NCBI GenBank assembly: GCA_945883495.1 | Contig: CAMCXS010000047.1 | Coordinates: forward strand, 1 to 44,992 | Direction of reading: 5' to 3' | Length of the DNA: 44,992 nucleotides | DNA from: Akkermansia muciniphila | GTDB taxonomy: Bacteria > Verrucomicrobiota > Verrucomicrobiia > Verrucomicrobiales > DEV007 | Shown: positions 6,820 through 44,685 of the stretch, in pieces | Layout: every line of letters begins with the position of its first letter | Numbering within the stretch: the stretch's first letter is position 1 | The notes under the pieces: generated by a model | Databases searched by the model: none | What the model saw: the letters and a program-made list of their open reading frames with translations, nothing else | What the model was told of the DNA's origin: nothing | Position numbers and translations under genes: made by a program

Positions 6820-6855
6820 TGGAGTGATGGAGTGATGGAGTGATGGAGTGATGGA
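6797..6855. repeat. 8-bp tandem repeat (TGATGGAG), about 7 copies
   Basis: Six perfect TGATGGAG units lie at 6801-6848, with partial units on both sides. The array covers the last codons and stop of the pectate lyase gene and the following bases. Every frame of the array meets TGA within 24 bp, so copy-number change would hardly alter the protein. Each unit also reads GGAG-TG-ATG, a minimal ribosome site plus start, followed by an early stop. Confidence 0.97.
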
Positions 6856-6927
6856 CCACCCGCCGCGGCAGCGGCAAATCTGGGCTGCCGAAGGGTGACT
6901 CGGGGAGCCTGCGGTAGCGGGCAGTGA
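6855..6927. repeat. 73-bp direct repeat, copy 1
   Basis: Begins ACCACCCGCCGCGGCAGC and ends GCGGTAGCGGGCAGTGA. It is identical by eye to 6988-7060. The two copies flank a 60-bp spacer holding the TCAAC heptamers and a CGCGC hairpin. No gene is apparent in it. Confidence 0.95.
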
Positions 6928-6940
6928 TGTTTTGCTCCCC

Positions 6941-6968
6941 TCAACGATCAACCCTCAACCATCAACTC
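6941..6968. repeat. TCAACNN heptamer array, locus 1
   Basis: Four consecutive 7-bp units of form TCAACNN (second letters GA, CC, CA, TC), followed at 6967-6983 by a hairpin TCGCGC-GACGA-GCGCGA. The same arrangement recurs at 29527-29554, in another intergenic space. Confidence 0.9.
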
Positions 6969-6987
6969 GCGCGACGAGCGCGAACGA

Positions 6988-7060
6988 ACCACCCGCCGCG
7001 GCAGCGGCAAATCTGGGCTGCCGAAGGGTGACTCGGGGAGCCTGCGGTAGCGGGCAGTGA
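6988..7060. repeat. 73-bp direct repeat, copy 2
   Basis: Second perfect copy of the 6855-6927 sequence. Together with the 8-bp array and the heptamers it fills nearly all of the 303-bp gap between the pectate lyase and the Old Yellow Enzyme; no other feature is seen there. Confidence 0.95.
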
Positions 7061-7122
7061 GGGCGAAAATTTGCTTGCCGGAGTGTAAGGAGGAGGTGGG
7101 GCGCGGCGTCGTGAGCGGGGCG

Positions 7123-8223: not shown

Positions 8224-8229
8224 CGCGGG

Positions 8230-8251
8230 CTCCGGGCGATCACACCCGGAG
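8230..8251 (+). terminator. Hairpin just after the OYE gene
   Basis: Perfect 7-bp stem CTCCGGG / CCCGGAG with an 8-base loop, six bases after the OYE stop. There is no T-run, so it may only stabilise the 3' end or attenuate. Confidence 0.45.
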
Positions 8252-8298
8252 AATTTGCTGGCCCGATCAAGCGGCCATCAGCATCCTGTTAGGCCGAG

Positions 8299-8442
8299 AT
8301 GAAAGCGAAATTGATTGTTTGCTGGCTGTTCGTCGCCCTTCCGCTGGGTTGGGGAGTGACCCAGTCGTTGAAGAAGGCGATCCCGCTGTTCAGCCGCGAA
8401 GCGCCCGCAGCAGGTATTCCGACGGCCGGAAATGCTCGATGA
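8299..8442 (+). CDS. 47-residue membrane peptide like MFS transporter small subunit
   Basis: ATG at 8299, stop TGA at 8440. The first 32 residues contain one hydrophobic helix with the pattern LIVCWLFVALPLGWGV followed by TQSLKKAIPLF. This is very like the small single-helix peptides annotated as MFS transporter small subunit (pattern AWLFVGIPLAWGVxQTLxxAxxLF), which usually lie beside an oxalate/formate-antiporter-type MFS gene. No MFS gene is present in this window, so this copy is an orphan here. The tail (about residues 33-47) lacks recognisable pattern and overlaps the convergent M29-like gene by 53 bp. A weak AGG lies 5 bases before the ATG. Confidence 0.65.
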   Translation: MKAKLIVCWLFVALPLGWGVTQSLKKAIPLFSREAPAAGIPTAGNAR

Positions 8443-9589
8443 GGACTTCTTCCTGGGTGCCGCGCTTCATGCGGACTTGGACGAGGTCGAAGTTTGGCGT
8501 TTTGTGCGGGGCGAAGAGGATGTCGTCATGCGTCGAGTTCTCGTGCCGCTTGAACATGCCGGGGACGATGTCGCCGCCGAGGTGATCATCGCGGCCGGTG
8601 GCCAAGTGACAGGTGCCGAGGACTTTTTCGTCTTGGATATCGGCGCCGGAGACGGGAAGGACTTGGGTGCCGAACCCGAGTTCCCCCAATGTCCCGGTCA
8701 TGGGATCATCGAGAAGGCGGGCGTTGTGGGTGTCGATGGTGGCCTGGTCGCCTTGCAGGAGCGTGGAGGAAATGATGTTGCGATTGCGCACTTCGAGGAG
8801 GCCGAGCGTGCCGTCGCTGTATTTCATCGGGAACTGGCCGTTGGCATCGACCGGGACGAAGTAGACCTCTCCGGCTGGGAGGTTGGCGACGTCCGGCTGA
8901 GTGCCGCGGCAAAGTCCGTGACTTTTTTGCGCTTCTTGGCCGCCGAGATCGAGGGAGGCGGTGAGAATCGTGCCATCTTCGAGGCCGAAATCGATTTCGA
9001 TGCTGTCCGCCATGGTCATGGCGATGCGCAGGCGCTCGGCGTCGGCACTGACTTGGTGGTAATCGACGGCGAGGCCGCTGGCGAGGATGACGTCATTGAC
9101 CCCGTGGAGCGTGGCACCGCGGAAGCCGAAAGTTTTGCACTTCGCGGTGAGCGGCGCGGTGGCGGAGAAGGTGGAGATGCAGAGGATGATGTCGTACGCG
9201 GAGTAGACATCGCGATCAAGGCTGAGTTGGCGGCCTGCCATGTCCCAGCACTCGTCGGCCAGATCGAGGTTGGAACCTCCTGTCATGCGATAGACGAACA
9301 ACTCGCCGCCAGAGAGCCCGAGGTCGGCCATCGTGCCGTCCTTGAGACCCAAATAGAAGTGCTCGTGAGCGCGCTTCTGGATTTCGTGACCTGGGGCCTC
9401 GAGGAACGCAAAATTTTTGGCGAGACTGATGTCTTCCAAGTCAATAAGGATACAGATCCGGCATCCCTGTGTTGGCTCGAACACCGTGCCAAGCAAGCGG
9501 GTGAGGGAGAACTCCGGAAAAACGCGTGCTTCGGGATCGAGGACCAGGGGCGGGGTGGTGGTTTCGGGGCCGGTCATGAGAGTAGGCAT
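8390..9589 (-). CDS. M29-like (AmpS/AmpT-type) aminopeptidase
   Basis: 399 residues with no signal peptide. The C-terminal half carries the pattern of thermophilic M29 metallo-aminopeptidases: GELGFGTQ (metal-ligand Glu), then DEKVLGTCHLATGRDDHLGG (Glu and His), then a His-rich segment ending THDDILF. These enzymes remove N-terminal residues from peptides using two metal ions. The N-terminal half (EPTQGCRICILID, SAYDIILCISTFSATAPL) fits the family's regulatory half. Family membership is judged from motif order; overall similarity to characterised members looks distant, so specificity is unknown. It diverges from the SDR gene. Confidence 0.7.
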   Translation of the reverse strand: MPTLMTGPETTTPPLVLDPEARVFPEFSLTRLLGTVFEPTQGCRICILIDLEDISLAKNFAFLEAPGHEIQKRAHEHFYLGLKDGTMADLGLSGGELFVYRMTGGSNLDLADECWDMAGRQLSLDRDVYSAYDIILCISTFSATAPLTAKCKTFGFRGATLHGVNDVILASGLAVDYHQVSADAERLRIAMTMADSIEIDFGLEDGTILTASLDLGGQEAQKSHGLCRGTQPDVANLPAGEVYFVPVDANGQFPMKYSDGTLGLLEVRNRNIISSTLLQGDQATIDTHNARLLDDPMTGTLGELGFGTQVLPVSGADIQDEKVLGTCHLATGRDDHLGGDIVPGMFKRHENSTHDDILFAPHKTPNFDLVQVRMKRGTQEEVLIEHFRPSEYLLRALRG

Positions 9590-13282: not shown

Positions 13283-15226
13283 TCAAGAGGCCGGCGGCTG
13301 GGCAGGGATGCTCTCCAGGTGGGAGCGGCTGGCCCGGACCGCTGGTCCGATGTCTTGGAGGTCGCACGGACCAAGATTTTCGAAGGAGACGCTTTCTACT
13401 CTCGCGCCTTCGATGTTTGCGAAGACCAGGGCCAGGCGTTTGGGCGTTTCGGGGAAGCCTCCTTGCCTGATGGGGCCGATGGCCGCGCGGACGCCGTTTA
13501 CGAACAAGGCCGCTTGGCCATCCTTGCAGTTGATGACGAGTTCAAGGTCGTTCTCGGCACCGGGTTTCCAGAAATCTTTGGGGAAGTCTACGTTCTTTTT
13601 CCGGAATCCCTGCTCGTGCAATCCGCCGCTTCCTGGGTTGCCGTGCTTGTCCCCCACGATGCCGACCCAGCCTAAGAGGTCATCATCCACGACGCTGGGC
13701 GCGTCCCGGTTCGCAAGGCCGATTCCCAGCCACCCTGCCGCAGGGTTCGAAAGACCAGAAACGATGATCCGAATGGTATCGCGAGACGAGTAGGTGCCGG
13801 TGAGATCAAAGGTGGCAAGCTGACGGCCGGCGGCGGCCTGCAATTCCTTTCCGGTGACCTTCAGCCCCGGCGTGGCCATCCAGACACGACCGCTGAGAGG
13901 CAGCGGCAGGCGCAACGGGGCGGAGGCGTGGAGCAGCCCGGCGGCGTGGGCATTGAAGTCATCGGCAAACCGGATCGGGTAGTCAGCAGCGATGCGCATT
14001 TTGACCGCAAGGAAGATCAATCCCGTGAGGAGCGGGACGATCAGGCCCACGAGCAGCGCAGGGTGGATCTTTGACTGGCGGCTTTCCGCCGGAAGCTGAT
14101 CGGCGATCGTGGACGCAGTCCCGGGGCCGGTTGGCGAGCCCATCGTTTGGATCCGCCCCGTGTTCATCCTGGGCGGCACGCGTCCCGTGGTGACGGCGGG
14201 AGTCCGGCCCGTCGCTGGCGGCACGTTGGATGTCTGGTTGGCTGGAGCCCGGTTGACAGGCGGGGCGGGCAGGGGACGTGGGGGGCGAGCAGGGTCCGCG
14301 ACCAGATTGGCCGGTTTGATGACGTGGACCTCTCCAGTACCAACGGGTTCGCTTGCTTCCGTCTCGTCGGCCTGGACCACATAGACCTCGCCGTCCTTGC
14401 TGGTGGCCAGAGGAAGGCAGTCCAAAGCTTCTTGGGCAGTCTGCGGCCGGTGACGAATGTCCCGGTTCATCAGCCACATGACCCATTGACAAAGATGACG
14501 AGGCAGGTCGGGCCGGAGCCGATCTAGCGGTTCGTAGGTGCCCTGGAGGTGGGCCGTCATGATCTTTGCCAGCGAGTCGCCGTCGAATGGATACCGGCCA
14601 GTGAGACAAAAGTAATAAACGCACCCCATCGCATAGAGGTCCGTGGCCGGTCCGAGCTCGCGCAGTTCGAACTGTTCGGGCGCCATAAAGTAGACGGTGC
14701 CGACGATGGAACGACCGTGTTCAACGGTTTGCAGGCTGGGCTGTGCGCTGATTTTGGCCAGGCCGAAGTCGAGGATTTTCACCTGGAACTTCTTCGATGG
14801 GAGCCACACGAGCATGATGTTCCCGGGTTTGAGGTCCCGGTGCAACATGTTGCAAGCGCCGGCGGCGATGAGGGCTTCCAGCGTCTGCTGTGCCACGGAG
14901 TGGAAGTCCTCCAGCGTGAGCACGTTGCGCTTGACGACGTCGTGGAGTGTCTCTCCATTGAGGAGCTCCATCACGACGAATCCGCCCTCTGCATCCTGCT
15001 GGATATCGTAAATCGAAACGATGTTGGGGTGGTTCAGCACGGACATCGCCGTGGCTTCCTTCATCAGGGTTTCCCCGATCTTTTCGATTTGCTCCGGCGT
15101 TGAGCCAGGCTCCACGGGGATTCGTTTGATGGCGACTTCCCGCTTTAAACGGGTGTCCATGGCTCGGTAGACGTGACCTCGCCCTCCCTGCCCGATCTTT
15201 TCCCGGATTTCGTAGCGCTCGCTCAT
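13283..15226 (-). CDS. Membrane-anchored Ser/Thr protein kinase with sensor-like tail
   Basis: 647 residues from MSERYEIREKIG. A complete Hanks-type kinase domain covers about residues 4-270: glycine loop GQGGRGHVY, ATP-binding lysine in VAIKRI, catalytic HRDLKPGNIM near 125, DFG near 152 and MAPEQFE for APE. A Pro-rich linker (about 300-385) leads to one transmembrane helix (about 387-412, LLVGLIVPLLTGLIFLAV) and an outside beta-rich domain of about 230 residues resembling concanavalin/LamG-like sandwiches. It presumably couples an external signal to phosphorylation of cytoplasmic targets. The frame extends upstream to 15319, but that part overlaps hipA debris and a hairpin, so the start where the kinase homology begins is used. 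Its last codon nearly meets convergent priA. Confidence 0.9.
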   Translation of the reverse strand: MSERYEIREKIGQGGRGHVYRAMDTRLKREVAIKRIPVEPGSTPEQIEKIGETLMKEATAMSVLNHPNIVSIYDIQQDAEGGFVVMELLNGETLHDVVKRNVLTLEDFHSVAQQTLEALIAAGACNMLHRDLKPGNIMLVWLPSKKFQVKILDFGLAKISAQPSLQTVEHGRSIVGTVYFMAPEQFELRELGPATDLYAMGCVYYFCLTGRYPFDGDSLAKIMTAHLQGTYEPLDRLRPDLPRHLCQWVMWLMNRDIRHRPQTAQEALDCLPLATSKDGEVYVVQADETEASEPVGTGEVHVIKPANLVADPARPPRPLPAPPVNRAPANQTSNVPPATGRTPAVTTGRVPPRMNTGRIQTMGSPTGPGTASTIADQLPAESRQSKIHPALLVGLIVPLLTGLIFLAVKMRIAADYPIRFADDFNAHAAGLLHASAPLRLPLPLSGRVWMATPGLKVTGKELQAAAGRQLATFDLTGTYSSRDTIRIIVSGLSNPAAGWLGIGLANRDAPSVVDDDLLGWVGIVGDKHGNPGSGGLHEQGFRKKNVDFPKDFWKPGAENDLELVINCKDGQAALFVNGVRAAIGPIRQGGFPETPKRLALVFANIEGARVESVSFENLGPCDLQDIGPAVRASRSHLESIPAQPPAS

Positions 15227-15267
15227 GTTTGCTGAAACGCCACCAGCAAACATGGCGAAGCCATGTT
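15224..15267 (-). promoter_or_regulatory. Two overlapping palindromes covering the kinase start codon
   Basis: In mRNA sense, an 8-bp hairpin AACATGGC-TTC-GCCATGTT (15267-15249) shares bases with an 11-bp hairpin CATGTTTGCTG / CAGCAAACATG (15254-15224) whose 3' arm contains the kinase ATG. The two cannot form at once, so one would bury the start codon while the other frees it. The stems are seen directly; the switching role is inference. A dispersed repeat sequence is an alternative explanation. Confidence 0.55.
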
Positions 15268-15315
15268 CTGGCAACAGGAAACTTGTCAATTGACGGACGG
15301 CGACGCGCGGCGGAT

Positions 15316-15785
15316 TCACTCGGCGTCGTCATCGGTTGCTTTCGCAAAGGACTTCGCGCATTCCGAGGTCCAGGCTGCAAGCGAATCGACCAGTTTTCCC
15401 ATGACTGGGTGCGTAAGGCCCTTGGCTCGGAGCTCTCGGGCAAGGAATAGTTCTTGGCGTGAGCGTCCGTGCCGGCGATGAGCCAATTAAAGGCGAGCGC
15501 ATCAAAGAAGCGAATGACGTCGTTCTCCGGCTTGGAGGGGTTGCTCCGCAGCAAACCGACGATTTCCACAGCGCCGGTCCACCTTTGGTTCTGGTATTTG
15601 GCGTGCGGAGGAGGGCTTAGTGCCTGGCAGATGTCTCCTGATGAATCCGGCGGGTCCCGTCGGGCATACGGTCATAACGTCGGGCCACAAAAACATGGAT
15701 GCCTCCGATGTTCATGACTTCCATGCTGTGATCAAGGAGCGCTGTCCGAATCCGATATTCGAGATTGATCCTCAACAAAAGAGAT
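15316..15785 (-). pseudogene. hipA: Broken HipA-type Ser/Thr kinase toxin
   Basis: HipA pieces occur in consecutive but different frames. One is VARRYDRMPDGTRRIHQE near 15620-15690. Next comes CQALSPPPHAKYQNQRW, then VEIVGLLRSN and FFDALAFNWLIAGTDAHAKN near 15460-15570. Finally a C-terminal tail, ARELRAKGLTHPVMGKLVDS, runs to the TGA at 15316. The N-terminal third of a normal HipA (about 430 residues) is missing and there are at least two frameshifts. HipA phosphorylates Glu-tRNA synthetase in the family's best-studied member; this copy cannot be functional. It sits just upstream of the kinase gene, with only a short hairpin region between. Confidence 0.8.
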
Positions 15786-15792
15786 TCACGTC

Positions 15793-15972
15793 CTACGCTC
15801 GGAGCGTCTTCAACACCAAGCCAATTTCGAAACTGGCTTTGCCTCGTTCGAAATCGATAATCCAAGAGCGGTTGACCCCCACCTTGTCAGGGAGCGTCTG
15901 CTGACTCCAACCGAGTTCATTGCGCCGTTCGCGAGAGTAGGCTGCAATGTCTTCGGCCGTTTTGACAAACAT
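15793..15972 (-). CDS. hipB: HipB-like XRE-family antitoxin, short remnant
   Basis: 59 residues from MFVKTAEDIAAYSRE to a TAG. The helix-turn-helix core is clear (RRNELGWSQQTLPDKVGVNR, then SWIIDFERGK) and it ends LVLKTLRA, where HipB proteins usually continue with a few more residues. In normal operons HipB binds its own operator and neutralises HipA. Here the partner is wrecked, and TLPDK replaces the usual LADK, so it may be decaying or may persist as a solitary regulator. Confidence 0.65.
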   Translation of the reverse strand: MFVKTAEDIAAYSRERRNELGWSQQTLPDKVGVNRSWIIDFERGKASFEIGLVLKTLRA

Positions 15973-33158: not shown

Positions 33159-33232
33159 CGAATCATTCACGGTGAAGCCAGTGCGAAGCCGCGAGCCCTG
33201 GTCAACAGGTGGGCACTTTCGCGCTTCGCCCC

Positions 33233-36200
33233 ATGAATCTACTCCGTCCGCTCGCGCCCATCTCGCTCCTTTTTAGCCTCGTTGCCCGCCGCACGGCTTG
33301 TGCGGTCTTCCTCTCGATTTGCGCGGGGAGTGCTTCGCTTTTGGCGGCTCCCATCGCAGGTTGGGACGTGAATCCGTCCACGGGTTACGGTGCCTCACCA
33401 TACGCCGCAACGGTATCTGATATCAACGTGACAGTGGAAGGGCTCACTCGCGGCTCGGGCGTCGTAACGACGGGGACAGCCGCAGGCCGGGCTTGGGGGG
33501 GATTGGGCTGGAATTTCACTACCGCCGCAGACGCCGTCACCAACAACCGGTTTATCACTTGCGCGGTGACTCCCAAGGCTGGGTTTGCGGTCTCCTTCAC
33601 ATCCATCAGCAAGTTTGATTATCGCCGGTCCGGTACAGGGGCCACTTCGGGCGTAGTGCAGTATCAAGTGGGTAGTGGACCGTTCGTGGACATCACCACC
33701 GTCAGCTACACCAACAACACCAGCGCTGGGGCCGCGCTGCCGGCGATCGATTTAAGCGGCATCGCAGCCCTTCAGAGCGTGCAGGCCGGCATCAAGGTGA
33801 CCTTCCGCGTCGTCAACTACGGTGCGTCGGGATCGGGTGGAACTTGGTATGTGTTCGACGTCAGCAACAGCAACGCCACCGACTTTCAGATCGATGGGAC
33901 GGTGACCACGTCTGGAAACGACGCCACCCCGCCGACGGCGTTGACGTTCAATCCGGCCGATAACGCCACCGGAGTGCCCGTTTCCGCCGCTCCATCGATC
34001 ACGTTCAACGAGCCCGTGCAGAAGGGGATCGGGAACATCCTCATCAAGCGTTCCGCCGACAACAGCATCTTCGAGACTATTTCAGCTTCGTCCGCGCAGG
34101 TCTCCATCTCTGGCACCGGGTGGACGCTCACTCCTACCTCCTTCTTCGCCGGGAACACCGGCTACTACATCGAGATTCCGGCGGGAGCGATCAAGGACGC
34201 CGCCGGTAACGACTACGCCGGGTTGGCCGGTGCGGCTGCCTGGAATTTCACAACGCTGGCTGCCGCCGCCAATCCCACCGCCACGGAAACCTTCGCCACC
34301 CAAACCCGCGTCACGCCGACCGGTTCCAGTTCCACCGCCGAATACTACGGTGAAGGCAACGGCCAAGGGACGTTTGCCGTGTATGGCTTCGGCACCTTCA
34401 ATTTCTCCAAGCTCGACTTCGGATTGTCCGGCGCCTCGATCATCACCAGCGTCGCCTCCGCCGAGTTCACCCTGACCCACAACGACCGGACGTTCACTCA
34501 GGGAACCGAGCTGGAGTTCTTCCTTACGACGGACAGCTCCACCGGCAAAACCTTCAATACGAGCTTGGTCAACGGGATCGACAACAATCAGTATTCCTTC
34601 GCTCCCATTTCTCTCGGCAAATTCGCTTACACGCCTAAAGCCGGTGGCCAGAAGGATACGTTCACTCTCAACCTGAGCGCCGTGGAAGCCGCGCTCGTCT
34701 CCCGCCTCAACACCGGCGAAGACTTCAGCATCATCCTCGCCGCCACCACGCCCATGGCCGCGATCACCTATTCCGGCAAGGGCAACACCTTTGATCCCGG
34801 TGATCCCTCGCTGAAGCTGACCGTCAATGAGACCACCGGCGTCGATACCACCCCGCCGACCTTGGCGTTCTTTACTCCAGCGGACGGTTCCGGCGGCTTG
34901 CCCATTTCCTCCAATCTCCGGGTGGCCTTCAACGAGCTGATCCGCAAAGGCGCGTCCGGCACCATCACCATCTTCCGCTCCAGCGACGACTCCGTCTTTG
35001 AAGCTATTGACGTCACATCTTCCCAGATCTCCGTAAACTTGGGAACGGTGACCATCGACCCGGCGAATGCCCTGGAGTCCGCCACCAGCTATTATGTGCA
35101 GATCACAGCCGGAGCCATCGAAGATGTAAGCGGCAATGCCTTCGCCGGAATCTCCGATTCCACCACCTGGAATTTCAGCACCGCGCAACCGCCGATCACC
35201 AACCTCGGGCCATTTGTCGCTTCGCAAAATGCGCCTGGCGGCACGGTCGTCGGACAGTTGAATAACAACATCAACGGCAAGGAAGGGATCAGATATTCTC
35301 TGCTCGCGGGCAGCGGCGGCACCACGATGATGAAGGCGGTTCCGGGCAGCGGCTACCTGGTGACGCCGATCTTTACCATCGGCGATACCATCAATTCCGC
35401 CACCGGCGCGCTCAACTCGACTTCCGCCGGAAGCTTCTCTCCGGTCGGCACGCTGGATGGGATCGGAGCTTTCTCGCTAAATGCGAACACGGTGCGGGTC
35501 TTTACGAATCACGAAATCGAAATTCCGAACAGCGGATCCGGTGGTTATCCGTATACGTTGGCGAACGGCACCGTGATCTCCAAAGGCGGCGCCCGGATCA
35601 GCTATTGGGATATCGATAAGGCGACCCGTCGTGTCATCGACGGTGGCTTGGCGATTGCCCGGATGTATGACCGCACGGGCACCGTGGTGACCAACGCCAG
35701 CCAGTTGGAGCTGGGTGGTTTGGACCGCACTTGTTCTTCCTCGCTTTTCGAGCCGAATCTTTGGGGGGCGGGCCGCGGCCTCGTCGATCGGATCTACATG
35801 ATGGGGGAGGAGACATCCACGGCGTTTGGGCACCCACACGGTGGGACGATGTGGGCGTTGGATACTTCCAATGGCGATCTCTGGGCGTTGCCGGACCTTG
35901 GCCGCGGATCTTGGGAGAACGCGGCGCTGGTCGATACCGGGACCACGACCCACGTCGCCTTGTTGCTCGGGGATGATGCTCCCGCGCGTCCGCTGTATCT
36001 TTACGTAGGACAGAAGAGCACCGCGGTGGGCGCAAACTTCGTGGAGCGCAACGGCCTCAAAGGCGGCCAGTTGTATGTATGGAAATCCACGAATGGGAAC
36101 ACCACGCCGCAGCAGTTCAATGGCACCGGAGCCAGCCGGACCGGCACCTGGGTGGCCATCAATGCGCGGGATGCTTCCAAAGCCGGCACCACCGGTCACG

Positions 36201-39200
36201 ATGCCCAGGGATACAAGAACGACACCACCCTCGGCAGTGAAGCGACCGCCGCGGGAGCTTTCCTCTTCTCCCGCCCGGAAGACCTTTCCGCCAGCCCCAC
36301 GGACGGCAGTATCATCGCCTTCACGTCCACCGGCCGGGGCAGCGTGTATCCGCTGGATAACTGGGGAGATACCAATGTCATCGACATCGATTTCAACGCC
36401 AGCGCCGTCCCTACTGCTGGTAATATTCGCATTCTCTATGACGGTGACGACGCCGGGGGCGGCCAGTTCATGACGCCCGAGGAAGGCTTGCGCTCCCCCG
36501 ATAACCTCGACTGGGCGGATGATGGATTCATTTACGTCCAGGAAGACCAAGCCAACAACACTGGCAGCTTTGGCGCCGCCGGTTTTGAGACTTCCATTTG
36601 GAAGCTGAATGCGACCACGGGAGAGGCGGTGCGACTGGCCGAGACCGATCGCTCCACCGTGCTGCCTCTTGGATCCACGGACACCAATCCGAGTGATGTG
36701 GGGAATTGGGAATCCTCGGGGATCCTCGACGTCTCTTCTCTCTTTGGCGAAGCTCCGGGGGAGCTCTTCCTCTTTGATTTGCAAGCTCACAGCGTGAACA
36801 ACGGCCTGATTGCCACCAAGCAGCTCTACGAAGGCGGCCAGCTCTGCTTCTTGGAGAAAGGCATCGAAAAGGGGGCGTTCAAGGTCAATCCGAATACCGG
36901 TGTCATCACCATCGCGAATCCCGATGCCATTGATCTGGCCACGCAGGCCTCGTATCAATTCCGCTTGCAGGCGTTCGACGGGACCAACCACACCTTCAAC
37001 CAAGTCACCGTCAACATCACCAATACGGCTGTCGCCACCTCCAACAGCTTCAAGGTGGCCACCTACAACATCAGCCACTACCGCACCAGCGCCGGAGCCC
37101 TTATTACCGATCTCGGCACGGTCACGAACACCCAGAGCCAAAACATTGCCCGGGTCATCCAACGGAACAATCCCGACGTCATCCTCCTCAACGAGTTCGA
37201 TTATGATGAAGACGGCCGCGCCCTGCAGCGGTTCCAGGATAATTACTTGGAAGTCGGCCAAAGTGGCGAGGCTCCGGTCTATTATCCGTATGCCTTCATC
37301 GCCCCGTCCAATACCGGCGTTCACTCTGGCTATGACCTCGACAACAACCGTGGAGTGGTCTCCACACCTGGAGCCGGCAACGGATACGGCGAGGACGCCT
37401 TCGGCTTCGGGGATTATCCGGGGCAATACGCCTTTGTCGTCCTTTCCAAGTTCCCCATTGACCGGGCGAATCTCCGCACCTTCCAGAAGTTCCTTTGGAA
37501 AGACATGCCTGGAGCCCTCTTGCCCGACGATCCGGATATTGCCGGCACCGGGGATTGGTATAGCCCAGCGGAGTTGAATGTCTATCGGCTCTCCTCCAAG
37601 AATCATGCGGACGTGCCCGTTCTGGTGAATGGGACGCCGGTGCATATTCTCGCCAGTCACCCCACGCCGCCGGTGTTTGATACAGGAGCGCCCTGGAAGG
37701 CCGGAGTCGATCACAACGGCCGCCGCAACAGCGATGAGATTCGCTTCTGGTCGGATTATGTGAATCCTGCCGCTTCCTCTTATATTTACGACGATACCGA
37801 AACCGCCGCGACGGCATCGGGAGGTCTGCCGGCGAACACCCGCTTCGTCATTATGGGGGATCAGAACGCGGACAACAACGAAGGTGACAGCACCGATCCC
37901 GCGATCAAGCAAATCATTGGCGGCATCGCCACGGCGGGCGGGGCCACGATCTCGCCCAATGCCTTTGTGAACTACACGTTCGTGCCCGCTGGTGGGGCCG
38001 GTCCCGAGCCGGATGACACCGCCGGGTTCAGCGGTGGGGTGCGGGTTGATTATGCCCTGCCTTCAGCCTTTGGGATGACGGTCGATAGCGGCGGCGTCTA
38101 CTGGCCCGGAGCCGGTGACGCCATGGCCGGGGCGATCGCTGCCTCCGACCACCGCATGGTCTACCTCAACCTCACCCTGACCGGTGTCGCCCCACCGCCG
38201 AATACGACGCTGATCAACTACTACGCGTCGGCAACTGGCTTGACGGGCAGTGCTTTGCAAACCGCGCTGCACAACATCATCGATGACCACGTTCCCCTTG
38301 ATTACAGCGTCACGGGCGACGTGATGCGGGTCATCGACCAAGCCCCAGGAGACAGCAACTCCGTCCGTCTCCTCTATTCCAATGCGACTCTCCCGAAACT
38401 CTCGACGCAGTGGAACCGGGAGCACGTTTGGCCTCGTTCGGATGGTGTCGGTGAAGACGGTCCAGATTTCTCCGACTTGCACCACCTGTTCCCTTCGGAA
38501 TCGAGCGTGAATAGTGTGCGTTCCGCGTTGGTGTTTGATGAGAGCAGCAACCTGCAAAGCAGTTCGTTTGCTCCGGAGTCGTTTGCGGATAACAATTCCT
38601 TTGAGCCGCTGGATCGCGACAAGGGAGTCGTGGCTCGAGCCTTGCTTTATATGATGGTCCGTTATGATGGTAACGATGCGTTGACCAGCGATCTGCAATT
38701 GGCGGACAACACCTCACCAACGGGAACTCACGGTGTCCTCAGCACGCTTCTGGCCTGGCATCGGGCTTTCCCGCCCACGGACTTCGAGCGCCAACGCAAC
38801 GACGCCATTTATAGTGGCGCCCAGGTCAACGGCGTCACCTACGCTCAGGGGAACCGCAATCCATTCATCGACTTCCCGCAGTTTGCGGACGGCATTTTCG
38901 TGGCCAGCACCGCGCAATCCTTCAGCAAGTGGCAGTTGGAGAATTTCACGATTGCCCAGTTGCTCAACGGTGCGGTCTCTGGGGCCAATGTCGATGCCGA
39001 CGGCGATGGACGGACCAATTATGCAGAGTTTCTCACCGGTGGCGATCCGAACTCTGGCATCGATCCGCTCCTCACCATCACTCGCGGCGCGGGGAATGTC
39101 ACCCTCTCCTTCCTGCGTCCCAAGGGGATCACGGAACAGACTCGCTTGCAGAGTTCCTCGACGCTCGGCGCTGCCAGTTGGCAGACCGTCACGGACTGGG

Positions 39201-39298
39201 AATCCTTTGCCAGCTATCTTGACATGACCGACTACGAGCAAGTCAACGTCACGCTTCCCGCCTCCAGCGCGATGTTCTGGCGCGTGATCTTCGAGTGA
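33233..39298 (+). CDS. Giant secreted PhoX-like / EEP nuclease / endonuclease I fusion
   Basis: 2021 residues from MNLLRPLAPISLLFSLVARR; a long signal region ends near LLAAPIAG. In order: a beta domain (to about 230); an Ig-like Big_5-type domain (231-340, TPPTALTFNPADNATGVPV); a second beta domain (350-535); another Ig-like domain (540-650); a DUF839/PhoX-like phosphatase region (about 655-1185; FTNHEIEIPNSGSG, DRTCSSSLFEPNLWG, MGEETSTAFGHPHGG, FSRPEDLSASP, DNLDWADDG); a cadherin-like piece; an EEP nuclease (about 1273-1650; ATYNIS, NPDVILLNEFD, FVIMGDQNAD, ASDHRMV); an endonuclease I/NucM domain (about 1656-1890; WNREHVWPRS, DLHHLFPSESSVNSVRS); and a calcium-binding-like DADGDGRTNYAEF tail. 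It probably digests extracellular nucleic acid. The eight upstream codons from 33209 are left out. Confidence 0.92.
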   Translation: MNLLRPLAPISLLFSLVARRTACAVFLSICAGSASLLAAPIAGWDVNPSTGYGASPYAATVSDINVTVEGLTRGSGVVTTGTAAGRAWGGLGWNFTTAADAVTNNRFITCAVTPKAGFAVSFTSISKFDYRRSGTGATSGVVQYQVGSGPFVDITTVSYTNNTSAGAALPAIDLSGIAALQSVQAGIKVTFRVVNYGASGSGGTWYVFDVSNSNATDFQIDGTVTTSGNDATPPTALTFNPADNATGVPVSAAPSITFNEPVQKGIGNILIKRSADNSIFETISASSAQVSISGTGWTLTPTSFFAGNTGYYIEIPAGAIKDAAGNDYAGLAGAAAWNFTTLAAAANPTATETFATQTRVTPTGSSSTAEYYGEGNGQGTFAVYGFGTFNFSKLDFGLSGASIITSVASAEFTLTHNDRTFTQGTELEFFLTTDSSTGKTFNTSLVNGIDNNQYSFAPISLGKFAYTPKAGGQKDTFTLNLSAVEAALVSRLNTGEDFSIILAATTPMAAITYSGKGNTFDPGDPSLKLTVNETTGVDTTPPTLAFFTPADGSGGLPISSNLRVAFNELIRKGASGTITIFRSSDDSVFEAIDVTSSQISVNLGTVTIDPANALESATSYYVQITAGAIEDVSGNAFAGISDSTTWNFSTAQPPITNLGPFVASQNAPGGTVVGQLNNNINGKEGIRYSLLAGSGGTTMMKAVPGSGYLVTPIFTIGDTINSATGALNSTSAGSFSPVGTLDGIGAFSLNANTVRVFTNHEIEIPNSGSGGYPYTLANGTVISKGGARISYWDIDKATRRVIDGGLAIARMYDRTGTVVTNASQLELGGLDRTCSSSLFEPNLWGAGRGLVDRIYMMGEETSTAFGHPHGGTMWALDTSNGDLWALPDLGRGSWENAALVDTGTTTHVALLLGDDAPARPLYLYVGQKSTAVGANFVERNGLKGGQLYVWKSTNGNTTPQQFNGTGASRTGTWVAINARDASKAGTTGHDAQGYKNDTTLGSEATAAGAFLFSRPEDLSASPTDGSIIAFTSTGRGSVYPLDNWGDTNVIDIDFNASAVPTAGNIRILYDGDDAGGGQFMTPEEGLRSPDNLDWADDGFIYVQEDQANNTGSFGAAGFETSIWKLNATTGEAVRLAETDRSTVLPLGSTDTNPSDVGNWESSGILDVSSLFGEAPGELFLFDLQAHSVNNGLIATKQLYEGGQLCFLEKGIEKGAFKVNPNTGVITIANPDAIDLATQASYQFRLQAFDGTNHTFNQVTVNITNTAVATSNSFKVATYNISHYRTSAGALITDLGTVTNTQSQNIARVIQRNNPDVILLNEFDYDEDGRALQRFQDNYLEVGQSGEAPVYYPYAFIAPSNTGVHSGYDLDNNRGVVSTPGAGNGYGEDAFGFGDYPGQYAFVVLSKFPIDRANLRTFQKFLWKDMPGALLPDDPDIAGTGDWYSPAELNVYRLSSKNHADVPVLVNGTPVHILASHPTPPVFDTGAPWKAGVDHNGRRNSDEIRFWSDYVNPAASSYIYDDTETAATASGGLPANTRFVIMGDQNADNNEGDSTDPAIKQIIGGIATAGGATISPNAFVNYTFVPAGGAGPEPDDTAGFSGGVRVDYALPSAFGMTVDSGGVYWPGAGDAMAGAIAASDHRMVYLNLTLTGVAPPPNTTLINYYASATGLTGSALQTALHNIIDDHVPLDYSVTGDVMRVIDQAPGDSNSVRLLYSNATLPKLSTQWNREHVWPRSDGVGEDGPDFSDLHHLFPSESSVNSVRSALVFDESSNLQSSSFAPESFADNNSFEPLDRDKGVVARALLYMMVRYDGNDALTSDLQLADNTSPTGTHGVLSTLLAWHRAFPPTDFERQRNDAIYSGAQVNGVTYAQGNRNPFIDFPQFADGIFVASTAQSFSKWQLENFTIAQLLNGAVSGANVDADGDGRTNYAEFLTGGDPNSGIDPLLTITRGAGNVTLSFLRPKGITEQTRLQSSSTLGAASWQTVTDWESFASYLDMTDYEQVNVTLPASSAMFWRVIFE

Positions 39299-39313
39299 AA
39301 TCGCCCCTGTGTA

Positions 39314-39335
39314 GGACAGGCATTCCTGCCTGTCC
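39314..39335 (+). terminator. Hairpin after the nuclease fusion gene
   Basis: Perfect 9-bp stem GGACAGGCA / TGCCTGTCC with a TTCC loop, 15 bases after the stop. It has no T-run, so it may be a repeat of the hairpin class rather than a true terminator. Confidence 0.5.
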
Positions 39336-39354
39336 AGAGGCATCGTGCTACTAA

Positions 39355-39448
39355 TCGTGCTCGTGCTCAGCGAAGCGGTGCTCGTAATCGCAATCGAATT
39401 CGCATCGGAGCCGCTCTGGAAAACCGTTGGTTTCGAGCACGAGCACGA
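39355..39448. repeat. 94-bp CGTGCT inverted-repeat unit, copy 1
   Basis: Bounded by perfect 14-bp inverted arms TCGTGCTCGTGCTC (39355) and GAGCACGAGCACGA (39435). The first 53 bases match 39673-39725 except for one base. MITE-like in layout, but no transposase or target duplication was seen. Confidence 0.85.
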
Positions 39449-39449
39449 G

Positions 39450-39523
39450 GAAGCGGCAGCAAACCTGCTTGGCTGTCGCTTCTCACAAAGCCTCAACGTG
39501 GCGCGGACTTTCAGTCCGCGAGT
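39450..39523. repeat. REP-like double-hairpin repeat, copy 1
   Basis: Holds hairpin AAGCGGCAGC / GCTGTCGCTT (10 bp, one G-T) and hairpin CGCGGACT-TTC-AGTCCGCG. It differs from 39550-39623 at two positions in 74. Confidence 0.9.
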
Positions 39524-39549
39524 GATGCGCCGCACCAGCGCCCATTGGC

Positions 39550-39623
39550 GAAGCGGCAGCAAACCTGCTTGGCTGTCGCTTCTCACAACACCTCAACGTG
39601 GCGCGGACTTTCAGTCCGCGAGT
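39550..39623. repeat. REP-like double-hairpin repeat, copy 2
   Basis: Second copy of the 74-bp unit with both hairpins; GATGCGCCGCA follows each copy, with a 2-bp insertion here. Confidence 0.9.
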
Positions 39624-39672
39624 CCGATGCGCCGCATTGGCGATCGAAGCGCGATTATGAACCGTTCTGGTA

Positions 39673-39766
39673 TCGTGCTCGTGCTCAGCGAATCGGTGCT
39701 CGTAATCGCAATCGAATTCGCATCGTAGCCGATCTGCACAACCGGTGGTTTCGATTACGAGCACGA
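39673..39766. repeat. 94-bp CGTGCT inverted-repeat unit, copy 2
   Basis: Same length as copy 1. Its outer arms TCGTGCTCGT (39673) and ACGAGCACGA (39757) are perfect over 10 bp. As with copy 1, a REP-like hairpin follows within two bases (39769-39799, degenerate). The rest of the gap 39800-40086 shows nothing I recognise; a 67-codon frame at 39798-40001 looks random. Confidence 0.85.
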
Positions 39767-39768
39767 GG

Positions 39769-39799
39769 AAGCGGCAATCAACCTGCTTAACTGTCGCTT
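39769..39799. repeat. Degenerate third REP-like hairpin
   Basis: AAGCGGCA / TGTCGCTT stem around ATCAACCTGCTTAAC; a decayed version of the first hairpin of the 74-bp units. Confidence 0.7.
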
Positions 39800-40086
39800 G
39801 GCAGCACAGCCTTCAAACCTAAAGTCCAAAGTTCCTTTGCGCCCAGAGTCGCCCCAGAACCGCCGTAGGTGGCTGCATCTTCACAAACAGCCACGCCAAA
39901 AACCCTTGACACAACGATCAACGATAGTTCAATTCATCCCAACCAATAAGAGAAACTCCCTTTCGCATCGCCCCCCCCATCCGGAGCCGACACGTCGCTA
40001 GTTGGCGGGCGACTCTAGAGTAGAATTAGGTCGATGTGCTGCCGGCCTGTCCGACCAACATTGGAAATCCTTGGCGAAGTTTCTGT

Positions 40087-40713: not shown

Positions 40714-41847
40714 ATGATCGAGCAGTTCACCGTGGAGTCCTTCAAGTCGATCCAGTCCGCCAAGCTGGACCTGGGCCAAGTGAATCTGTTCATTGGCGCA
40801 AACGGCAGCGGCAAGAGCAATTTGTTGGAAGCCCTCGCGGTGTTGTCGGCGGCGGCTGGGGGGAAAGTGGATTTGCCCTCGCTGCTTTGGCGCGGCTGCC
40901 GACCGAGCGGTTATTTCCAACCGATGTTTAGGGGATCGGATCAGGACGCTAGTACGCGGCTGCGTGCCTCCGACGCTTCAGCCTTTTATGACGTTACCTT
41001 AAAGCCGTCGCCCGCCTTGCGTCCGCAGGCATGGACATATCTTGAGGAACATTGGCCGGATCAAACCCATCAACGCGATTGCAATTCGGAACCACACACC
41101 GGTTTGGCGGCCCTGTCGCTTGCAATGGCAGGCACGGCTGGACCAACGGCTGGGTTTTTAAAGTCCCTCGCGGAGTTCTGCATCTACTCGGCCGAGACAC
41201 GGATGCTCCAGGGGCGTAGCGAGGATTCTCAGGCGCGCCAACCGGTTGGGCTGGGAGGGGGAAATCTCATCCAGGCCATTCAAGACCTCCTGTCCCAAAA
41301 CCGTGATGCTCTCGAAACTGAGTTTGGGGAATGTGTCGATTGGTTTGGAGAACTTGTGATCATCGACTCACGAGCTCCGAGCTGGAGGCATCTTGAACTT
41401 GGGTTCGTGGATCGTCACCTTCGTTCGGAAGGCAAATACCAGTTTCTTCTGAACGAAAGCGAAGTCAACGAAGGCGCGCTCTACCTCGCCTTTCTCGCCG
41501 TTCTCGGCCTGCATCCCGATGCGCCCGAAGTCTTTGCCGTGGAAAATGTCGATCACGGCCTGAATCCGCTGCTGGCCAAGCGGCTCATGACGACCCTGAC
41601 GTCTCGCATCCTATCCTCCGAGAGGAAACGCCAAGTCTTTTTGACGACGCACAATCCGCTCGTCCTGGACGGCCTCCCCCTCGGCGACGATCGCGTCCGG
41701 CTCTTCACGGTGGATCGGGACAACAAGGGGCGCACCGTGGTCCGCCGGTTTATCATCACCGACAAACAGCGCGAGATGGCGGCTCAAGGATGGACCTTGT
41801 CCCGCATGTGGGTCAATAAGTTGATTGGAGGCGTTCCCGATGTCTGA
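40714..41847 (+). CDS. OLD/RecF-like AAA ATPase, first gene of two-gene module
   Basis: 377 residues. It is an SMC/ABC-type ATPase of the OLD/AAA15-21 sort: IEQFTVESFKSIQSAKLDL at the start, Walker A GANGSGKSN (about residue 28), a signature-like NEGALYLAFLAVLGL (about 250), Walker B VFAVENVDHGLNPLL (about 273), and the H-loop LTTHNPLVLDGL (about 312). In Walker B the usual DE is VE-N. There is no coiled-coil arm and no fused TOPRIM domain; instead a separate TOPRIM-like protein overlaps its end by 8 bases. Such split ATPase-nuclease pairs occur in anti-phage systems (for example PARIS and AbiL). Function here is inferred. Confidence 0.85.
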   Translation: MIEQFTVESFKSIQSAKLDLGQVNLFIGANGSGKSNLLEALAVLSAAAGGKVDLPSLLWRGCRPSGYFQPMFRGSDQDASTRLRASDASAFYDVTLKPSPALRPQAWTYLEEHWPDQTHQRDCNSEPHTGLAALSLAMAGTAGPTAGFLKSLAEFCIYSAETRMLQGRSEDSQARQPVGLGGGNLIQAIQDLLSQNRDALETEFGECVDWFGELVIIDSRAPSWRHLELGFVDRHLRSEGKYQFLLNESEVNEGALYLAFLAVLGLHPDAPEVFAVENVDHGLNPLLAKRLMTTLTSRILSSERKRQVFLTTHNPLVLDGLPLGDDRVRLFTVDRDNKGRTVVRRFIITDKQREMAAQGWTLSRMWVNKLIGGVPDV

Positions 41848-42553
41848 CGACGAGCCTCTGCGAATTGCCTTGGTCGCCGAGGGACCGACGGATCGCATCG
41901 TGCTGGATGCGGCCCTGTCCTCCATCCTCGGAGATCGCCGCTACATTCTTCGCCTGTTGCAACCAGAGGATTCGCTCGCATTCGCACCTCCATCCGCCTC
42001 AAGCGGCCGAGGAAAAGGCTGGGGAGGGGTTTGTCTCTGGTGTCGCAACACCCATCAGCGAGGCGGCGGGACGCTGCGCCAGGATCTCGTTTTTGAAACC
42101 TACGACTTACTGATTGTTCATCTGGATGCAGATGTCGCAGGTTGTCGCTATTCGGACTGTGGATTACCGGACGATGTTGGCGATCTGCCTTGCGACGAAC
42201 CCTGTCCTCCACCCAGCACAACAGTGGATCGGCTCCGGTGCGTGATCCTGCGCTGGGTTGGAGAAACCGAACTTCCCCCACACACAGTGCTCTGTATCCC
42301 TTCGAAAAGCACCGAAACCTGGGTCGTCGCGGCGTTGTTCCCCGATGACAAAGAGATGCAACGAAAAGGTTGGGAGTGTCATCCCAATCCCGCGACCAGG
42401 CTAGCCGCCCAACCGAAATCGGATCGCCTGAAGAAAACCGAGATGAATTACCGGGGAATCCAAGACCGGTTGGCAGCGGAGTGGCCGCGGGTTTGTTCTC
42501 TGTTGGGCGAAGCGGAGCGATTCTCCGAGGCGGTGCGGAATTCGGTTCGTTGA
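41840..42553 (+). CDS. TOPRIM-like partner of the ATPase (DUF4276-like)
   Basis: 237 residues from MSDDEPLRIALVAEGPTDR. TOPRIM marks are the Glu in ALVAEGPTDR near residue 14 and the Asp pair in LLIVHLDADVAG near residue 94, the metal-binding triad of OLD-type nucleases. A Cys-rich insert (CRYSDCGLPDD, LPCDEPC) follows the Asp pair and could bind zinc. KSTETWVVAALFP resembles the segment after the TOPRIM core in DUF4276 proteins. GGAGG at 41827 lies eight bases before this ATG and fixes the start; the ATG at 41825 is five codons earlier. The 8-base overlap with the ATPase suggests equimolar, coupled production. Confidence 0.75.
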   Translation: MSDDEPLRIALVAEGPTDRIVLDAALSSILGDRRYILRLLQPEDSLAFAPPSASSGRGKGWGGVCLWCRNTHQRGGGTLRQDLVFETYDLLIVHLDADVAGCRYSDCGLPDDVGDLPCDEPCPPPSTTVDRLRCVILRWVGETELPPHTVLCIPSKSTETWVVAALFPDDKEMQRKGWECHPNPATRLAAQPKSDRLKKTEMNYRGIQDRLAAEWPRVCSLLGEAERFSEAVRNSVR

Positions 42554-43224: not shown

Positions 43225-44685
43225 GTGGTGAGAACGCGATACCAGGTCTTCATTAGCTCAACGTACCGGGACCTCAAGGATGAGCGGCAGGCCGTGATGA
43301 AGGCGGTGCTCAAGGCGAACTGCTTCCCTGCAGGGATGGAGCTGTTTCCCGCGACAGATGAGGAGCAGTTTAGGTTCATCAAGCGGGTCATTGATCAAAG
43401 TGACTACTACCTGCTGATCATTGCCGGATCTTACGGCACCGAAGACGCTAGTGGTTTGGGTTTCACGGAGCGAGAGTTTGACTACGCTGTGGAACGGGGG
43501 ATTCCGGTCACTGCCCTCTTGCACCGCTCCCCGGATCAGTTGATGCTCAAAAACTCGGAGACGGATCCAGAGCGTCGGCGGAAGTTGGAGCGTTTCCGGG
43601 ATAAAGCCGGTAAAGGACGTTTGGTGGAGTATTGGGAGTCCGCAAACGAGCTCCCCGCACTGGTATCGAATTGTTTGTTGCACGAAATCACGACGAATCC
43701 GGGGATAGGGTGGATTCGTGCGGATCAGATTCCGGTGGCTGCCGGAACGAGCTCGGCCCACTCGGATAACTCAGAGCATTCTATTCGGAGCAAGGCACGG
43801 GGAAGTGTGCTTGCTGTCCTGAGAGACCTAGTCTTCCTCAACCTCCCCCTTGAGTATCGATCGGTATTGGCGCGAATCAGTCCAACGATTGACAGCGGCG
43901 ACGTACGCAACGCAGTTCAGGATTTGGCGGACAGAGGGGAGATAGACCTTGAAGACGGAGATGAACTGAATGGGCCGGTGATTCGATATCCGGGAAAACG
44001 CGTAGTTCCGCAGACCGCGAAGAGTGACAAGATTGGACGGGTTGAACCCTGTTGGCGGCCGACCCAGTATGTGGCGCGGGATCAACGTGTGGTGACCCGG
44101 GATAGCTTATGTGCAAAAGTAAGAAATCTCGGCAACGTGCCGTTGTGGGTAGATGAACTGGGATTTACGCTCGGACGAGAGCGAATCCCGGCGCAGATCT
44201 CACCTGATGATGGGGAAGGCCACAACTTCGAAGTAATTCCTTTTCGAAGTCGCATCTTTCGGCTTGGCCAGGTCAACCTTACCGGAGAACAGATTGGACA
44301 AGTGGACGGATTCTATGTCGTCACTGGCACGGGACATCTGATCACAGTAACGGATCTGGAAATGAACAGGGTGCGGCTTCACTTCCGGGTGATCGCAAAT
44401 CCCCGAGAAGAGGCCGACCGGCTCTCGAGAATGTTCAAAGTTGCGGCGAAGAATCCAAATGAATTGAATTCCAGCATTCTCCGGATTACAGAAACTGCTA
44501 AAGCTCTCCGAAATCACTTCTCGGGCGTGACCGGGGTGGAGGAAAAGCTGGCTGAATTTGAACACCATGCCAGATCTGCAGCAGGTCTGGAAGCGACCAC
44601 CCACTCTCGGGAGCAGCAGATTGTTTGGAGTCTTGGCGCGTTGGACGGTCTTGAAATCTCACTCGCTCAGATGGACTTGCGCTAG
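43225..44685 (+). CDS. DUF4062 (TIR-like fold) protein
   Basis: 486 residues with a GTG start; AAGAGGA lies four to seven bases before the two consecutive GTG codons at 43225 and 43228. Residues 4-95 are a DUF4062 domain: RYQVFISSTYRDLKDERQAV, FPAGMELFPATDE, SDYYLLIIAGSYG, and GFTEREFDYAVERGIPV. This domain has a TIR-like layout and is common at the N-terminus of bacterial signalling and putative immune proteins. The rest (about 170-486) has a winged-helix-like stretch near residue 200 (VLAVLRDLVFLNLPLEYRS) and a beta-rich region, and it lacks an obvious ATPase. Codon use looks less GC-biased than in the neighbours, hinting at transfer. Confidence 0.85.
   Translation: MVRTRYQVFISSTYRDLKDERQAVMKAVLKANCFPAGMELFPATDEEQFRFIKRVIDQSDYYLLIIAGSYGTEDASGLGFTEREFDYAVERGIPVTALLHRSPDQLMLKNSETDPERRRKLERFRDKAGKGRLVEYWESANELPALVSNCLLHEITTNPGIGWIRADQIPVAAGTSSAHSDNSEHSIRSKARGSVLAVLRDLVFLNLPLEYRSVLARISPTIDSGDVRNAVQDLADRGEIDLEDGDELNGPVIRYPGKRVVPQTAKSDKIGRVEPCWRPTQYVARDQRVVTRDSLCAKVRNLGNVPLWVDELGFTLGRERIPAQISPDDGEGHNFEVIPFRSRIFRLGQVNLTGEQIGQVDGFYVVTGTGHLITVTDLEMNRVRLHFRVIANPREEADRLSRMFKVAAKNPNELNSSILRITETAKALRNHFSGVTGVEEKLAEFEHHARSAAGLEATTHSREQQIVWSLGALDGLEISLAQMDLR

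Follow-up and report, generated by a model that had tools for sequence, protein, structure and literature searches.

In water and sediment, extracellular DNA is known to serve as a source of phosphorus. Nucleases and phosphatases are generally tallied as distinct genes. The question raised by the locus described here is whether one secreted protein can combine both kinds of enzyme. The window, the whole stretch of DNA that was analyzed, is one entire contig (G000:C47, 44,992 bases) from a 6.46 Mb draft genome that is 96% complete. Its nearest relatives are Verrucomicrobia metagenome-assembled genomes (MAGs), some of which carry lake or pond names (loci L035, L039, and L040). The fusion gene considered here is an open reading frame (ORF) at positions 33209-39298 on the forward strand. 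The encoded protein has 2029 residues from GTG 33209, the longest version, and 2021 residues from ATG 33233, which is likely to be the start. Residues of this protein were numbered from GTG 33209.

The whole protein was scanned with Pfam using the curated cut-offs. Matches were obtained for PhoX (PF05787; 55.2 bits against a cut-off of 24, in two stretches with the best at residues 896-1138), Exo_endo_phos of the EEP type (PF03372; 87.8 bits against 24.5, residues 1285-1648), and Endonuclease_1 (PF04231; 98.8 bits against 25, residues 1679-1890). Big_5 (PF13205) was matched in two stretches with 129.8 bits, and a cadherin match at residues 1217-1271 falls below threshold (20.6 bits against 28.8). 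An earlier, sequence-only reading had placed PhoX-like, EEP-type, and endonuclease I-type domains in series behind a signal peptide and Ig-like spacers and had proposed a domain search for the three enzyme families, all of which score above the cut-off. The motifs it quoted are present as well, with GDQNAD at residue 1550, SDH at 1646, NREHVWP at 1736, and DLHHLFP at 1756. The presence of two different nuclease domains and a PhoX domain behind a signal peptide on one chain is confirmed. The fusion gene provides the only PhoX match and the only Endonuclease_1 match of the draft genome, in which seven EEP and three PhoD matches are also found. The chain is probably a secreted nucleic-acid mineralizer that would scavenge phosphate from extracellular DNA.

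Related loci were scanned, and the best 80 of 363 were examined. The same domain order appears in one frame at 13 other loci (L032-L044), among which the C-terminus of L035 is cut by a contig end. One more near-complete ortholog is found at L123 (genome G449), which brings the total to 14 besides the window protein. Loci L032 and L042 seem to be contigs of genomes G002 and G001, respectively. Partial orthologs are L045, which lacks the N-terminus, and L046, which carries the EEP domain in two frames and Endonuclease I, without PhoX. At L046 (1-7273) a frameshift probably accounts for the two EEP frames, and Endonuclease I is matched again by a second fragment at 6392-7273. Chance or mis-assembly is ruled out as the source of the architecture by the 14 other near-complete orthologs with the same order, and its uniqueness is ruled out by their occurrence in 14 other genomes.

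The EEP and Endonuclease I domains are contiguous in a frame of about 2000 residues in 13 of the 288 genomes of the order, one of them cut by a contig end. A PhoX match was obtained in 6 of the 74 genomes of the family (4 with the full protein), and a PhoX-cadherin query matched 4 of 387 genomes in a broader draw from the phylum. The draft genome itself is included in each of these counts. No plasmid record was found that covers 80% of the query. Ratios of nonsynonymous to synonymous substitution (dN/dS) were calculated by the Nei-Gojobori method for nine ortholog pairs and are rough, since several dS values exceed 1. Values of 0.035-0.092, 0.017-0.141, and 0.030-0.236 were obtained for PhoX, EEP, and Endonuclease I, respectively, and values up to 0.43 for the N-terminal domain. 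These ratios indicate purifying selection on each of the three enzyme domains.

The PhoX domain is longer than its Pfam stretch and covers approximately residues 712-1216, as placed by the orthologs, by the standalone relative L121, and by the copies in L047. In a phmmer search of PDB sequences the only meaningful match was Pseudomonas fluorescens PhoX (1.9e-6), and the A1 profile gave 2.8e-15. Among the site residues of PhoX, PMC11098088 names R385 and D292. In the alignment to 3zwu, E273, D292, R385, E387, and D479 of PhoX correspond to E903, D923, R1022, E1024, and D1098 of the window protein. We take E273, E387, and D479 to be site residues also. The five positions are kept in all aligned orthologs that cover them, with RLE in place of RPE in L032 and L042. 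Adding the distant PhoX domains from L047, L069, and L108 leaves E903, D923, E1024, and D1098 either invariant or conserved to at least 90%. Within the N-terminal half are NHE, C842, and EE, and the orthologs retain C842, E769, and E867/E868; a cysteine and an N-terminal glutamate are presumably metal ligands of PhoX.

The structural model of the PhoX region is of middling confidence, with a mean predicted local distance difference test (pLDDT) score of 58.7 and a predicted template modeling (pTM) score of 0.69. A Foldseek search with this model returned 4a9v first, with an E value of 1.1e-16 and a template modeling (TM) score of 0.52; the next unrelated chain appears at 1.2e-6. PhoX is also first in VIA, with a Z score of 20.9 and 431 of 581 residues aligned over chain positions 22-580. 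Unrelated propellers follow closely in VIA, and 764 of 980 chains exceed a Z of 8, so Z alone is weak evidence. The region is predicted to fold onto Pseudomonas PhoX, and the PhoX fold, whose absence the sequence-only reading had named as a refutation, was returned by structure prediction, with 4a9v as the best match. The 16% identity and TM score near 0.5 to PhoX, the many unrelated propellers at Z 17-20 in VIA, and the modest PhoX score of standalone L121 (34.8 bits) would also suit a propeller that acts here as a binding module or some other hydrolase rather than as a phosphatase. This alternative is very improbable, given the wide margin by which PhoX leads in Foldseek, the five kept site positions, and a PhoX dN/dS below 0.1 in nine of nine pairs.

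Alignment A2 of the two nuclease domains contains 15 rows. In the numbering of A2, the EEP residues N12, E54, H209, D276, N278, D339, D372, and H373 are invariant, and N, E, H, DxN, D, and DH are what we take to be the EEP catalytic list. Residues E463, H464, and N493 of Endonuclease I are likewise invariant, and REH together with an Asn presumably forms the metal site of that family. The A2 profile found only Endonuclease I relatives among PDB sequences, with the Asn region aligned to 1oup, a Vibrio-type Endonuclease I. A phmmer search of PDB sequences with the single EEP and Endonuclease I stretches returned nothing at 0.001. The sole NCBIfam match, to the equivalog PRK15137 (deoxyribonuclease I), reached 17.1 bits against a cut-off of 372, and the protein does not belong to that equivalog.

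The phosphatase partners of the EEP clade, the group of nuclease domains to which the EEP domain of the window belongs, bear on the role of the chain. The PARTNERSHIPS of the EEP clade was assessed by Pfam on eight relatives and by profiles built from them. An EEP domain shares one frame with a phosphatase domain at 29 of 80 loci, which comprise 14 window-type loci (L032-L045), 6 with purple acid phosphatase, 6 with phytase-like and phytase domains (4 of these also with PhoD), and L047, L069, and L108. The fusion partners include 5'-nucleotidase domains. In all, PhoX of two subfamilies, purple acid phosphatase, phytase with or without PhoD, and 5'-nucleotidase are paired with this clade. A wider set omits L046, EEP matches no longer than 300 residues, and loci that were short or duplicated where a longer version existed; 34 of its 96 EEP domains are fused. 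At the EEP match, a relative in a plasmid record is labeled only "esterase-like activity of phytase family protein". Giant frames of 2255-4427 residues at L125 (6667-14970), L126 (2034-10787), L127 (3273-10037), and L047 (2855-16135) carry EEP, 5'-nucleotidase, and choice-of-anchor I domains; three also have phytase-like stretches, and L047 holds two PhoX-like copies.

A chain whose main task is to clear or remodel DNA outside the cell (that of a biofilm matrix, prey, competitors, or phages), with PhoX as a side activity, would fit the two nucleases set against one phosphatase, and the Ig-like and cadherin-like domains would suit contact with a surface or matrix. Secreted nucleases are common in sludge MAGs, and nutrient or structural roles for DNA are proposed in PMC11495043. 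This explanation is unlikely: it leaves unaccounted for the pairing of the EEP clade with several phosphatase families, PhoX and EEP show about the same degree of conservation, and the fusion protein has no match to a defense family. Phosphate acquisition is preferred over matrix clearing mainly because the same nuclease clade is recurrently paired with phosphatases of different families.

The EEP superfamily includes lipid and inositol phosphodiesterases. The EEP domain might thus cut phosphodiesters such as phospholipids and glycerophosphodiesters within a broad degrader of organic phosphorus, for which nucleic acid would be one substrate among others. Relatives of the chain do carry phytase and PhoD, and a GlpQ-phytase chain is known in Nodularia (PMC3610870). 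The chain here and that of L069 also contain Endonuclease I, a nucleic-acid family, which at L108 is encoded next to the chain; the broad degrader is quite unlikely.

In the steps proposed for the mineralizer, the protein would be exported through its signal peptide. Endonuclease I would cut long extracellular DNA (or RNA), and the EEP domain would shorten the pieces. The Endonuclease I and EEP families leave 5'-phosphate ends. PhoX, a phosphomonoesterase, could strip the terminal phosphates as inorganic phosphate, with nucleosides and oligonucleotides left over. The Ig-like and cadherin-like domains may serve to space the enzymes or to tether the chain to a surface. PhoX probably sits inside the cadherin-like domain, an arrangement that would bring the two ends of PhoX together, with the nucleases directly after. 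We infer enzyme activity, product hand-over, export, phosphate regulation, and a nutritional role from sequence. The earlier suggestion that the chain could turn extracellular DNA into phosphate and nucleosides is supported at this level by the domains, the conserved site positions, and purifying selection, and its link from DNA to phosphate gains from the EEP clade being fused to or lying beside phosphatases elsewhere.

Several observations weigh against the mineralizer. The model of the nuclease half (A2) has a mean pLDDT of 34.4 and is too poor for structural use. The best PhoX Pfam stretch spans only positions 233-472 of the 515 in the profile, and the sequence alignment to 3zwu is confined to the part of PhoX beyond its N-terminal half, which leaves C842 as a candidate for the cysteine ligand. 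Among the 96 EEP domains, 62 stand alone, with the partner absent from the same frame by the profiles used; some of these frames are cut by contig ends. No phosphate gene was found among the seven other window proteins scanned with Pfam, six of which had a match; the remainder of the window was inspected by eye only. At the other loci, only some neighbors fit a phosphate role, namely a protein with PhoD and two phytase-like stretches at L034 and a phytase-like protein at L032. A Pho-box scan was made of 14 upstream regions, each made up of the 250 bases that precede the frame, or as many as the locus contained, and the first 60 of the frame itself; the regions start from stop-to-stop frames, and some real promoters may fall outside. 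In 13 of the 14 regions no Escherichia coli-type Pho box was conspicuous, and the best matches there have 4-6 mismatches against shuffled means of 4.9-5.3. The exception is a Pho-box-like site with 2 mismatches upstream of L044, for which the best of 100 shuffles has 4.

A graded arrangement of the same enzymes is found in another PhoX subfamily. In Catenovulum (L109), the ATG of a PhoX gene comes 30 nucleotides after the stop of a PKD-EEP gene. Matches were obtained in 62 of 118 genomes of Catenovulum and its relatives, in a scan that scored at most 3 candidates per genome. Both EEP and PhoX were matched in 10 of these genomes; the two lie side by side on the same strand in 8 and on different contigs in G685 and G700. 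The other 52 genomes gave one match alone. In Sulfuricurvum (L108), PhoX, PKD, EEP, and LTD domains form one chain, and a frame for Endonuclease I-LTD opens 90 nucleotides later. In a Clostridia MAG (L069, JAFGTX010000385.1), PhoX, PKD, EEP, LTD, and Endonuclease I are joined in one chain of 2452 residues, which is 58% identical to the Sulfuricurvum chain over 304-1535 and 53% and 44% identical to the two Catenovulum proteins. The PhoX of L108 matches solved PhoX weakly (2.6e-5), and that of Catenovulum returned nothing at 0.001 in a phmmer search of PDB sequences. Read from these sequences, the progression from neighboring genes through a partial to a full fusion shows a graded series of EEP, PhoX, and Endonuclease I linkage.

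A tree of the EEP domains built by a quick method requires no fewer than 7 switches between the fused and the unfused state, 3 of which are forced by well-supported branches. The orthologs form one side of a branch with support of 100, and a single origin of all PhoX-EEP fusions is not rejected (approximately unbiased test, p 0.098). In the PhoX tree, which drew long-branch warnings, the fused Verrucomicrobia domains join standalone L121 (98 by the Shimodaira-Hasegawa approximate likelihood ratio test, SH-aLRT), far from L069, L108, and L109. The two subfamilies are approximately 20% identical. Two origins of the PhoX-EEP fusion are considered because the PhoX tree places the fused domains with L121 and away from L069, L108, and L109; this suggests that the Verrucomicrobia fusion is an assembly separate from the L069/L108 series. 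On balance, the EEP clade appears to be the core of recurrent one-chain nucleic-acid mineralizers, fused to or in tandem with several phosphatase families, in which the set of PhoX, EEP, and Endonuclease I came together on at least two occasions, here with a cadherin-inserted PhoX. A further PhoX relative at L122 (7584-9435) is spread over two frames that overlap (7584-8483 and 8368-9435), possibly through a frameshift.

The apparent insertion of PhoX into a split cadherin-like domain, a new feature here, was evaluated by joining the two flanking halves. The joined halves score 32.6, 34.8, 28.7, and 30.9 bits with PF00028 for the window, L035, L044, and L037, respectively; three of the four exceed the cut-off of 28.8, and L044 falls below. 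They are continuous on the profile of 93 positions, covering 6-91, 3-92, 3-92, and 4-91, respectively. In this test the C-terminal half alone gave 25.7 bits for the window and 19.9 for L044, and the N-terminal half alone gave no PF00028 match in either of these two proteins. Four shuffled N-terminal halves each, joined to the C-terminal half, gave 24.7-25.8 bits for the window and 20.0-23.0 for L044. Support for the split, which may be read from these scores, is moderate because two other segments of the same protein also give 27.2 and 28.6 bits when joined to the window C-terminal half. The PhoX model is poorly resolved around the halves. Standalone L121 begins and ends with PhoX and has no cadherin-like flanks.

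The features of the fusion protein are collected in Table 1. The small beta domain at its C-terminus is the only confident part of model A2 (pLDDT blocks of 69-84).

Table 1. Features of the fusion gene, with positions in the window
Feature	Position	Strand	Basis
Signal peptide, judged Sec-type by eye, with cleavage around AA/PIAG	33233..33349	+	Sequence; similar short hydrophobic N-termini in orthologs
N-terminal domain, fold unassigned, fastest evolving part	33353..33904	+	No Pfam match; dN/dS up to 0.43
Big_5 bacterial Ig-like domain 1	33920..34255	+	PF13205, residues 238-349
Linker domain between Big_5 domains, no family match	34265..34828	+	56-81% identity in 13 orthologs
Big_5 domain 2	34829..35188	+	PF13205 in two stretches; placed by 43.6% identity to Big_5 domain 1
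N-terminal half of cadherin-like domain, apparently interrupted by PhoX	35198..35320	+	Rise of PF00028 score when joined to C-terminal half
PhoX phosphatase domain (predicted), propeller	35342..36856	+	PF05787; PDB 4a9v best structural match; residues aligned to 3zwu
C-terminal half of cadherin-like domain	36857..37033	+	PF00028 profile 37-91; alone below cut-off in whole-protein Pfam scan
EEP (DNase I-like) nuclease domain; invariant N, E, H, DxN, D, DH motif residues	37061..38152	+	PF03372; alignment A2
Endonuclease I (Vvn/NucM-type) domain; NREHVWP, DLHHLFP, VN motifs	38243..38878	+	PF04231; A2 profile matches 1oup
C-terminal tail: calcium-loop-like DADGDGRTN segment and small beta domain (approximately residues 1956-2029)	38924..39295	+	Sequence; model A2

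In the window, the fusion gene follows a PF02390 methyltransferase gene, read as TrmB. Downstream of it, the intergenic stretch at 39299-39800 contains near-identical repeats, for example gcggactttcagtccgcgagt and gaagcggcagcaaacctgctt, each present twice, before the next larger ORF. An AAA ATPase gene and its overlapping downstream neighbor (40714-42550, forward strand) match PADLOC PDC-M31A (319.5 bits) and PDC-M31B (254.4 bits) over nearly the full length and form a candidate defense pair. This is followed by a DUF4062 protein (94.5 bits; 43225-44682, forward strand) with no PADLOC match. A trypsin-like PDZ protein, identified by Pfam on the L036 copy (14872-15900, reverse strand), recurs downstream of orthologs at L032, L042, L043, L044, and L045; the window showed no relative of this protein. 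Like those noted at L034 and L032, another neighbor at L036 is a large protein with phosphoesterase-type domains; it has choice-of-anchor I and LTD domains and a weak phytase-like stretch, and a 5'-nucleotidase fragment there was detected by a custom profile only.

A chain that seemingly performs both steps, is kept by purifying selection, and is approached by unrelated bacteria would mark DNA as a substrate worth a dedicated enzyme. If so, phosphate release from extracellular DNA could be a single-protein process that is missed or mislabeled by surveys of phosphatase marker genes.

Among known systems, the PhoX region resembles PhoX of P. fluorescens (PDB 4a9v, 3zwu, and 4alf; PF05787) in its Pfam match, its predicted propeller fold, and the five site positions. 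To our knowledge, known PhoX proteins stand alone, whereas PhoX is here fused to two nucleases and seems to lie within a cadherin-like domain. Export of PhoX by the twin-arginine translocation (Tat) system is predicted in PMC11098088, but no conserved twin-arginine is seen by eye in the signal of the window protein. Endonuclease I is like the Vvn/NucM/EndA enzymes (PDB 1oup and others; PF04231) in its family match and its NREHVWP...VN motifs; the five matched solved chains have 210-231 residues, whereas in the window the domain lies near the C-terminus of a chain of 2029. The EEP domain and the predicted secretion resemble those of extracellular nucleases of the ExeM/Xds type, and LTD domains occur in the relatives L069 and L108. 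We know of no ExeM/Xds-type EEP nuclease with a phosphatase domain. The trifunctional nucleotide phosphoesterase YfkN of Bacillus has metallophosphoesterase and 5'-nucleotidase domains and is not known to carry a nuclease for polymeric DNA; it is similar in carrying several nucleotide phosphoesterase domains on one chain.

In Nodularia, nsp6490 combines two GlpQ domains and a phytase in one chain and is strongly induced under phosphate limitation (PMC3610870, PMC9846622). It shares with the window protein a phosphodiesterase and a phosphomonoesterase on one chain, and a comparable one-chain principle is already in print. No EEP, Endonuclease I, or PhoX domain is named for nsp6490 in these descriptions, and the proposed substrates are glycerophosphodiesters and phytate. 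No description of the combination of PhoX, EEP, and Endonuclease I was found among the papers listed in searches of the open-license literature, subscription journals being mostly outside the search; the sequence-only reading, which knew of no described protein with all three, agrees with this absence of a characterized protein of the architecture. The Clostridia chain of L069 has PhoX, EEP, and Endonuclease I on one chain as here, but differs in its PKD and LTD spacers and in its PhoX subfamily, and is probably a separate assembly. Relative to these systems, what appears from the sequences to be new is the apparent placement of PhoX in a split cadherin-like domain, the fusions of the EEP clade with phosphatases (29 of 80 loci), and the graded series.

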